Below are positions 5,497 through 7,345 of a stretch of 33,198 bases of DNA, one piece after another. Each line of letters opens with the position of its first letter. Within the stretch, counting starts at the first letter, position 1. Source of the DNA: Acidobacteriota bacterium (GTDB lineage: Bacteria > Acidobacteriota > UBA6911); the NCBI GenBank assembly GCA_003225335.1, contig QHZE01000459.1:1-33198 (forward strand), in the 5' to 3' direction. The position numbers were made by a program, and so were the translations under genes. The notes under the pieces were generated by a model, which was given only the letters and a program-made list of their open reading frames with translations, had not been told where the DNA came from and made no database searches.

Positions 5497-5664
5497 GACG
5501 AACAGGTCTGGCCAACCGTCAAAAAGCTGATCGAAGAGAATCGCCGCAGCGTTGGCATCGACGTTTGGCCAATTCGTTATTCGAACATCAAAGCATACTT
5601 GGAGAGCTGGCGCGGCAAACAGGAACAGCGGCAGAGTCTGATCGGCATTAATCGGCCAGTGTAA
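5497..5664 (+). pseudogene. Orphan 55-codon C-terminal-like remnant
   Basis: Open plus-strand frame with no start codon of its own, bounded upstream by TGA (5494-5496) and ended by TAA (5662-5664). It reads DEQVWPTVKKLIEENRR, then GIDVWPIRYSNIKAYLESW and a polar tail. This looks like a genuine protein end (amphipathic helices, balanced composition) that lost its upstream part. I do not recognise the family. Its end overlaps the last bases of the opposing toxin-antitoxin gene by 17 bases. Confidence 0.4.
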
Positions 5665-6244
5665 GCTCCTTCTCAACGAGCTCTTTGTGAGTCTGCGCGA
5701 ATTTGGCCTTTGCCTCAATGCCAAGTCGTCCAGCATAGCGAAGCAGCTTATCCACGCTTTTGTTGGCGATCTTTCCGTTGAGGAGTTCGCTCACACGCGG
5801 CTGAGGCTCTCCGAGGATTACTTGCAGTTGCTTTTGGGAATACTTTTTGGCGTATTTCAGGATTGCCTGGTACAGTTCGGCTTTGAACTCCTCCGCCAAA
5901 CGCGCCTTCACCGCTTTGAGCCGCCGCTTCGCTGTCTCGAACTCCCTTCTGGGCATCTCCCGGCTCTTTTTCTCGAAGCAGTGAAGAACGTAGATCACGT
6001 CATTTATCCGCGACAGGTAAACGACGCGATACCAGGCTCTCTCATCTTGGTCTCGCAGTTCAAAAACGCCCGTGCCAATCGAAGGCAACGGTCTGCAATC
6101 ACTCGGTCTCTCGCCTTGTTGCAGCTGCCAAAGCTGGAATCCCAAGTTCTGCCTGACGCCGTCCGGGAAGGCCTGAAGAACCTCCCTGGAGTCGCCCTCC
6201 CAAACCACGGCCGCGTATTTGGGCCTTTCGGTTTGCTCGCTCAC
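5648..6244 (-). CDS. Fused HigB-like toxin / HigA-like antitoxin
   Basis: One 198-residue polypeptide joins two modules normally encoded by separate genes. Residues about 10-112 (KYAAVVWEGDS, LGFQLWQLQQGERP, GVFELRDQDERAWYRVVYL, YVLHCFEKKS) match the RelE/HigB Gp49-like toxin family, an mRNA-cleaving fold. Residues about 120-183 (ELYQAILKYAKKYSQKQLQ, GEPQPRVSELLNGK) match the XRE-type HigA antitoxin with its DNA-binding helix-turn-helix at about 135-159. There is no stop or frameshift between them. I chose GTG at 6244; a TTG at 6265 in the same frame is possible, and neither has a clear ribosome site. A palindrome at 6276-6295 is a candidate autoregulatory operator. An internal GGAGGAG at 5889-5895 might permit separate antitoxin synthesis. 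Confidence 0.85.
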   Translation of the reverse strand: MSEQTERPKYAAVVWEGDSREVLQAFPDGVRQNLGFQLWQLQQGERPSDCRPLPSIGTGVFELRDQDERAWYRVVYLSRINDVIYVLHCFEKKSREMPRREFETAKRRLKAVKARLAEEFKAELYQAILKYAKKYSQKQLQVILGEPQPRVSELLNGKIANKSVDKLLRYAGRLGIEAKAKFAQTHKELVEKELTLAD

Positions 6245-6275
6245 GAGTGCGAATATAGCAGGCAAGCCGTATCAA

Positions 6276-6413: not shown

Positions 6414-7016
6414 TTAGTTTTTCAAGACGTCATGGAGGTGGCGGCGGAATTCGGCGATCACGTGCACCACGGGCCGATCGGCAAAGACGGGCTCTGGAAA
6501 CGCGCTTTCCCACCGCATTCCCCTCGCGTAAACGGCTACAACGTCCCACACCGGGCCGTCATCAGAGGAAAGTTGGGCAAGAGGGCTCCGAGAATCGCCC
6601 CGTGCGGCTGCCTTTATCTCCTGCGAAACCCGCAGCCGCCTGTCCCAGAATTGAGCTGCTCTGGCGTCGTGAAGGCGGTACAGCACTCCAGTGGTGGGAG
6701 CGGACCAATCTGTCAGTAGAACAGGCTCCCATATGACAAAAACGCGGAGTGGCTGATCGGGGATTTCCTTCAGGACTGTCTGAACTGCAGAGGCCCCCTG
6801 CAGGCAAACCGATCACGTGGGTGAGAGGAGGACCAGGACTCGCACTGCGCCCGCCGCCTCGTTGAACTGCCGTTGGAATTCCGGGAGGGTTTCAGAATTG
6901 ATGGATAACAGCGAGGGCTGTCCTGCGGGCGTATGACGGGGCCGGAAAGCGAGGTAACCGGCCAGAAGGAAGACGACGAGAAGAATTGCTGCCAGGACAG
7001 CAAAGAACCTTTTCAT
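6414..7016 (-). CDS. Membrane-anchored thioredoxin-like selenoprotein (UxxC), Sec at in-frame TGA
   Basis: A 200-residue protein if the TGA at 6815-6813 is read as selenocysteine (residue 68). The N-terminal segment about 3-24 (FFAVLAAILLVVFLLAGYLAF) is a single membrane anchor or uncleaved signal. The extracytoplasmic part contains RVLVLLSPT, a beta strand leading straight into the motif U68-S-V-C71. This is the position of the CxxC redox site in thioredoxin folds. Reading continues without any further stop for 132 codons (VFVIWEPVLLTDWSAPT, AAQFWD, DDGPVWDVVAVYARG) to the TAG/TAA-type end at 6414. A hairpin follows the TGA at bacterial-SECIS distance. The ATG overlaps the stop of the upstream MerT-like gene by four bases (ATGA), implying translational coupling. 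An ordinary gene caller would split this into two unrelated ORFs. Substrate is unknown; a redox role linked to the metal transporter is inferred. Confidence 0.85.
6785..6815 (-). promoter_or_regulatory. Candidate bacterial SECIS hairpin with its UGA
   Basis: On the minus strand, TGA (6815-6813) is followed after nine bases by CTGCAG (6803-6798), a G-rich loop GGGGCCT (6797-6791) and CTGCAG (6790-6785). The six-pair stem can be extended inward by G-U and G-C pairs to eight. The apical G-rich loop begins 16 bases after the UGA. In the well-known E. coli fdhF SECIS the apical loop lies about 19 bases after UGA, also on a TGCA-type stem. SelB binding is inferred. Confidence 0.7.
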
Positions 7017-7345
7017 TTTGGCGCCTGCGCGAACCAATCCGCGAGCAAGCCTGCGATGTTTTGCGGGAACAGAAACAGGAGCAGCAGCAGCCCGGTTGCG
7101 GTCCAGAGAAGGAAGACGGCCATGCGATTCCTCTTTACCGGACAATTGGACGCTCCGTAAGCTTGCCAGAATCCCACGCCCAGGAGAAGAACCGACAGTC
7201 CCATAAGATAGGGCCGGGCAGAGCTCAGAAACGCCGCGGCCCCGGCAAACCCGGCAGCCGCGAAAACAGTTCCCACCGGAAGGCAACAGCTAACCGCTGA
7301 AACAAAACTCACGATCGCCGCAAGTGGAGCAAATCCGCGTTTCAA
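7013..7345 (-). CDS. MerT-like membrane transporter
   Basis: A 110-residue inner-membrane protein with three hydrophobic segments (about 5-35, 46-63, 76-93). The first carries the vicinal pair C20-C21 (SAVSCCLPVG), the hallmark of mercuric-ion transporter MerT, followed by the ARPYLMGLSVLLLGVGF block typical of that family. MerT usually has a second Cys pair in the cytoplasmic loop; here only C68 (ASNCPVK) is present. The TTG at 7345 is preferred because GAGGG lies seven bases before it and the MerT homology begins there; the open frame itself runs further upstream through repeat-like sequence. The stop overlaps the selenoprotein ATG. No merR, merP or merA is nearby, so transport of Hg specifically is not established; another soft metal or a thiol-reactive compound is possible. 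Confidence 0.8.
   Translation of the reverse strand: MKRGFAPLAAIVSFVSAVSCCLPVGTVFAAAGFAGAAAFLSSARPYLMGLSVLLLGVGFWQAYGASNCPVKRNRMAVFLLWTATGLLLLLFLFPQNIAGLLADWFAQAPK

Follow-up and report, generated by a model that had tools for sequence, protein, structure and literature searches.

The window analysed here, the whole 33,198-nucleotide stretch of contig QHZE01000459.1 from an Acidobacteriota bacterium, carries on its minus strand (6414..7016) a gene for a protein of 200 residues whose codon 68, a UGA, is almost certainly read as selenocysteine (Sec). This sequence-based assignment is nearly certain because about 50 relatives carry the same TGA followed by an RNA hairpin, and 11 others have Cys in its place. 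The wider statement, in which this selenoprotein also has a thioredoxin-like fold and is paired with a gene for a MerT-like membrane protein, is very probably correct.

The sequence-only reading had joined two apparent open reading frames into one minus-strand frame, in which TGA is followed by 132 sense codons and a Cys stands two codons beyond it. The frame was reproduced, with the start ATG at 7016, the TGA at codon 68 (6813..6815, minus strand) and a TAA stop at 6414-6416. The residues around the TGA are S-P-T-U-S-V-C, with U-S-V-C read at codons 68-71. The TGC at 6804..6806 (minus strand) encodes Cys71, the resolving Cys of the UxxC motif, which is invariant in the family.

The first relatives came from scanning about 85,000 species genomes. 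Thirteen were obtained (39-48% identity over the best segment), all titled Acidobacteria or its subgroups, and in all 13 a stop stands at the identical alignment column and is TGA. By profile search, the family is present in 46 of 396 genomes of the phylum, about 1 in 9, Cys forms included. Duplicate removal left 62 loci, the window included; a weak match (L084) was left out of the family counts, giving 61. At the column of codon 68 these have TGA in 50 and Cys in 11, the window counted, and TAA, TAG and Trp codons are absent. No homologue ends at the TGA; all run on past residue 68, where they have TGA or Cys. Judged from the alignment, the recurrence of TGA and Cys in one column is far more than chance would be expected to give. 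The same TGA in about 50 loci is therefore not a sequencing error.

In a maximum-likelihood tree of 60 members, eight Sec/Cys changes are needed, at least seven of them forced by well-supported branches, and the window gene falls in an all-Sec clade of 11. No family relatives were found in plasmid sequences by tblastn. One relative, Acidobacteriaceae bacterium KBS 96, may be cultured, since its genome is not marked as metagenome-assembled (MAG); besides the family gene it has selB (403 bits) and a tRNA-Sec (74 bits). The host genome holds a second family member (G000:C439:11182-11607; L065:4518-5195) with the motif SPTUMKC, a Tat-like leader and a SECIS hairpin of its own, placed in a different clade. 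Another locus (L082:3900-3941, genome G242) has two TGA codons, SPTUPKU, and is a possible UxxU double selenoprotein, with a hairpin that fits the consensus poorly. Between closely related members, dN/dS was 0.14-0.58 before the TGA and 0.11-0.35 after it in measurable pairs. The region downstream of the TGA thus evolves under purifying selection and not neutrally.

The hairpin proposed from the sequence, with CTGCAG arms and a G-rich loop starting 10 bases past the TGA, was found at 6785..6803 (minus strand). Its sequence is CTGCAG-GGGGCCT-CTGCAG, the first base being the 10th after the TGA. It is a bacterial SECIS-type hairpin of 8 bp with the loop GGC, or GGGGCCT with the two top pairs unformed. 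Across all 50 Sec genes, the alignment of the 42 nt from the TGA is free of gaps. In this alignment 86.7% of the cells of stem columns 13-20 with 24-31 are paired, compared with 68.4% after shuffling, and changes on both sides are seen at seven of the eight stem pairs. Covariation scores 0.575, compared with 0.242 +/- 0.021 for shuffled alignments (none of 500 shuffles reached it), and slid versions of the stem gave at most 0.186. RNAalifold, unprompted, returned seven of the same eight pairs. In the 11 Cys genes, 41% of the cells are paired and there is no excess covariation; the hairpin therefore tracks the TGA rather than the amino-acid sequence. In four Sec genes (L082, L095, L088, L102) just three to four of the eight consensus pairs form. 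Scanned against Rfam at gathering thresholds, the window had no match.

The machinery for Sec insertion was searched for in the host genome (7.5 Mb, 97% complete), and selA (562 bits), selB (371.9 bits), selC and selD (370 bits) are all present. The selC gene encodes a tRNA-Sec with the anticodon tca (75 bits, candidate C794); other, weaker selC candidates were rejected as ordinary tRNAs for Ser and Arg. The host selD (L030; G000:C354:39365-40288) is itself a selenoprotein gene, with an in-frame TGA in the motif SCAGUASKL. Across the phylum, selA is above the cut-off in 32 of the 35 genomes with the TGA form versus 249 of 396 genomes overall (Fisher p=1.6e-4). The three TGA-form genomes lacking selA are fragmented MAGs. 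Two of them (G104, G140) have selB over the cut-off, and in the third (G258) the C-terminal part of selB is matched below it. In a 99% complete genome of two contigs with the Cys form only (G329), neither selA nor a full selB was found. As the comparison shows, SelB reads the UGA of codon 68 as Sec under the direction of the hairpin beginning 10 nt further on.

A structure model of the joined 200 residues was predicted with AlphaFold2, using 60 sequences (pLDDT 96.3, pTM 0.89). It contains an N-terminal hydrophobic helix, residues 2-23 (6948..7013, minus strand), a predicted membrane anchor or signal, and a thioredoxin-like domain, residues 44-199 (6420..6887, minus strand). The UxxC had been placed after the first strand of a thioredoxin fold, and in the predicted model strand 58-64 leads to U68-x-x-C71, where helix 69-84 begins. 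The best PDB matches by Foldseek all have the thioredoxin fold (TlpA-type, ResA, DsbE, GPX). Their TM-scores are modest, which points to a divergent branch of the fold, and a sequence search of the PDB gave weak thioredoxin-fold matches only. That the protein is exported or anchored, as first read, is consistent with the predicted helix and is supported by the signal-type or Tat-type leaders of relatives. The domain anchored in the inner membrane probably faces the periplasm, because N-terminal Lys/Arg residues precede the helix and because in fusions the domain comes after the MerT-like segments.

Directly upstream lies a gene for a small MerT-like membrane protein (7013..7345, minus strand; probable TTG start at 7345 after GAGGG), with a CC pair, within SCCLP, in its first hydrophobic segment. 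Its stop and the selenoprotein start overlap as ATGA (7013..7016, minus strand), and the same 4-nt overlap occurs in L014, L016, L018, L019 and L020. The overlap probably couples the translation of the two genes. The window partner resembles the NCBIfam MerTP fusion (1.2e-7) and MerT (1.6e-6) models at scores below both cut-offs (31.5 vs 180 and 28.4 vs 130 bits), and it was not picked up in a genome-wide PF02411 search of the host. With a profile built from the window ORF, homologues were found near the family gene in 23 of 62 loci: directly upstream at near-equal spacing in 15, slightly further upstream in L101, fused in four and nearby in three. The partner is thus upstream or fused in 20 loci. 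The fusions are in frame, three with Sec (L022, L023, L024) and one with Cys (L090). Genuine PF02411 MerT proteins above the family cut-off are present at L081, L099, L101, L102 and L073, the one at L099 carrying an HMA domain. MerR regulators adjoin L012, L081, L090 and L095; none was observed next to the window gene. A MerT-like neighbour is absent from about two thirds of the examined loci, and none was seen in the clades around L065, L047 and L098. The metal link may therefore hold for a subset of the family only.

Other arrangements were seen in these neighbourhoods. L099 and L101 adjoin a MerT-HMA fusion or have HMA-like remnants immediately ahead of the thioredoxin-like domain; some loci therefore combine MerP-like with selenothioredoxin parts. 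At L081:2276-2983 a DF-family (seleno)protein domain (NF049942) is fused to a genuine MerT, beside MerR and a Cys form of the family, an arrangement in which the unexplained 'hypothetical protein DF' can be placed; the DF-family (seleno)protein also occurs in the L073 locus. In one genus a conserved ORF of about 110-120 aa lies directly downstream of the family gene (L096:3877-4239, L095:3551-3886, L104:3235-3591, L064:1040-1411); the L096 copy has no Pfam match, and MerC (L104) or MerR (L095) genes occur in such loci. A scan of downstream ORFs gave a Gp49 match, and in the window an ORF at 5648-6265 (minus strand) resembles a Gp49/HigB-type toxin joined to a helix-turn-helix antitoxin-like part.

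The selenothioredoxin and the MerT-like protein most likely work as one unit, because they are translated together and are fused in relatives. A redox or thiol-metal role carried out with the MerT-like partner is the moderately favored function. Two Cys of MerP bind Hg(II), which MerP then delivers to the CC pair of MerT; MerT-MerP fusions form a named family (NF033556), and TlpA reduces a copper chaperone. In gene order and in fusions, the Sec-thioredoxin would fill the place of MerP beside MerT. Its Sec/Cys pair would bind a soft thiophilic metal ion, e.g. Hg(II), and hand it on to the MerT-like protein at its CC pair, or would instead keep that pair reduced; relay of metal and reduction of the CC pair both appear to fit. 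The naming of Hg(II) as the metal is tentative. A selenium-based soft-metal relay, with the membrane-anchored selenothioredoxin standing in for MerP and its Sec-Cys pair capturing Hg(II) or a comparable ion for delivery to the MerT-like transporter, can likewise be put forward only as a possible mechanism.

An alternative is that the protein, still a selenoprotein, is a general periplasmic thiol-disulfide reductase or peroxidase of the TlpA/ResA/GPX kind with no metal role, its MerT-like neighbour being incidental. The top structural matches (TlpA-type, ResA, DsbE, GPX) and the many family members lacking such a neighbour are in keeping with this. The four in-frame fusions, the ATGA overlaps and the occurrence of MerT, MerR or HMA neighbours in distant clades argue against an incidental neighbour, and the alternative is considered unlikely.

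Readings that dispense with Sec fare far worse, and the three considered here fail against the Sec/Cys column, the covariation of the hairpin and the selection downstream. Reading of the TGA as Trp, or by generic readthrough, would by itself also yield a full-length protein. However, the homologues have Cys at this position and never Trp, family members have TGA at this position only, and the genome supplies the Sec machinery and the gene a SECIS-type hairpin; this reading is highly improbable. A nonsense mutation, or a pseudogene with a decaying downstream part, has in its favor the presence of a stop and nothing more. It is set against TGA in 50 loci, Cys in 11, and purifying selection and a covarying hairpin beyond the TGA, and its probability is negligible. 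The preference for Sec over a nonsense mutation, expressed from the sequence at the outset, is thus borne out by the TGA/Cys column, the hairpin, the selection and the Sec machinery. Equally negligible is a short exported peptide followed by an independently started C-terminal protein: ORF finders do give separate entries, but the TGA falls within the strand-loop-helix active site of a single domain predicted with confidence, and the Cys homologues are continuous.

The selenoprotein and its relatives constitute a new family inside the thioredoxin-like UxxC selenoproteins, one unusual in its link to MerT-like transport. In a Pfam/NCBIfam (June 2026) scan of 60 members no model covered the UxxC domain besides weak matches (Thioredoxin, 7e-4, in two members; pdi_dom, 0.0067, in three), and the window protein itself matched no Pfam or NCBIfam family. 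A review of prokaryotic selenoproteins (2026) names several Trx-like UxxC families as well as mercury-linked selenoproteins (PMC13188914). The comparison covered its families with NCBIfam models, none of which matches; others are listed there by CDD number only (cd02966). The deep-Sep paper reported no new family in the single acidobacterium it examined (PMC12013277). The literature searched on selenoproteins with MerT, MerP or the mer operon, in which subscription journals are mostly uncovered, held nothing on this family.

Like SaoT (NF040730), GOS_C (NF045500), HUIPC (NF047660) and Sec thioredoxin, the family has a thioredoxin-like fold with UxxC between the first strand and helix, a SECIS element just after the UGA and Cys homologues. 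Unlike these, it is membrane-anchored or exported and tied to MerT-like proteins; no member matches the SaoT, GOS_C or HUIPC models, and the family has motifs of its own (SPTUxxC, WxP, FWD, WD). With MerP and the MerTP fusion (TIGR02052, NF033556) it shares the position of a periplasmic-side partner with a two-chalcogen x-x motif, beside or fused after MerT. It differs from these in having a thioredoxin-like fold and not the HMA fold with GMTCxxC, in the Sec that replaces the first Cys, and in that the window's MerT-like partner scores below the family cut-offs. HMA occurs in the family only as an extra N-terminal part of single members. The mercury-linked selenoproteins (putative mercuric transport protein, PF02411 C/SxxU; MerT/CopZ, NF045683; DF, NF049942; UxxU metal-binding, NF041115) similarly place Sec in mer-type transport loci, and their DF and MerT domains adjoin this family at L081 and L073. 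By their names and models, those proteins carry Sec in MerT, CopZ/HMA or DF domains, whereas here it is in a separate thioredoxin-like domain. The TlpA-Sco pair also combines a membrane-anchored TlpA-type fold with a metal-handling thiol protein, and 4txo is among the structural matches; there is no detectable sequence relation to it, and the partner here is a MerT-like transporter.

Taking the TGA as a stop cuts a whole selenoprotein family, one not covered by any Pfam or NCBIfam model, in two at the active site. The host, a soil-type acidobacterium, encodes a thioredoxin-like selenoprotein that was previously unmodelled, and the family offers a clean series of independent Sec/Cys exchanges with a readily recognised SECIS element. 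The family suggests a part for selenium chemistry in metal transport of the mercury type. If the relay holds, the covalent fusions of MerT with the Sec-thioredoxin would be its clearest form, and it would be widespread in one soil phylum.
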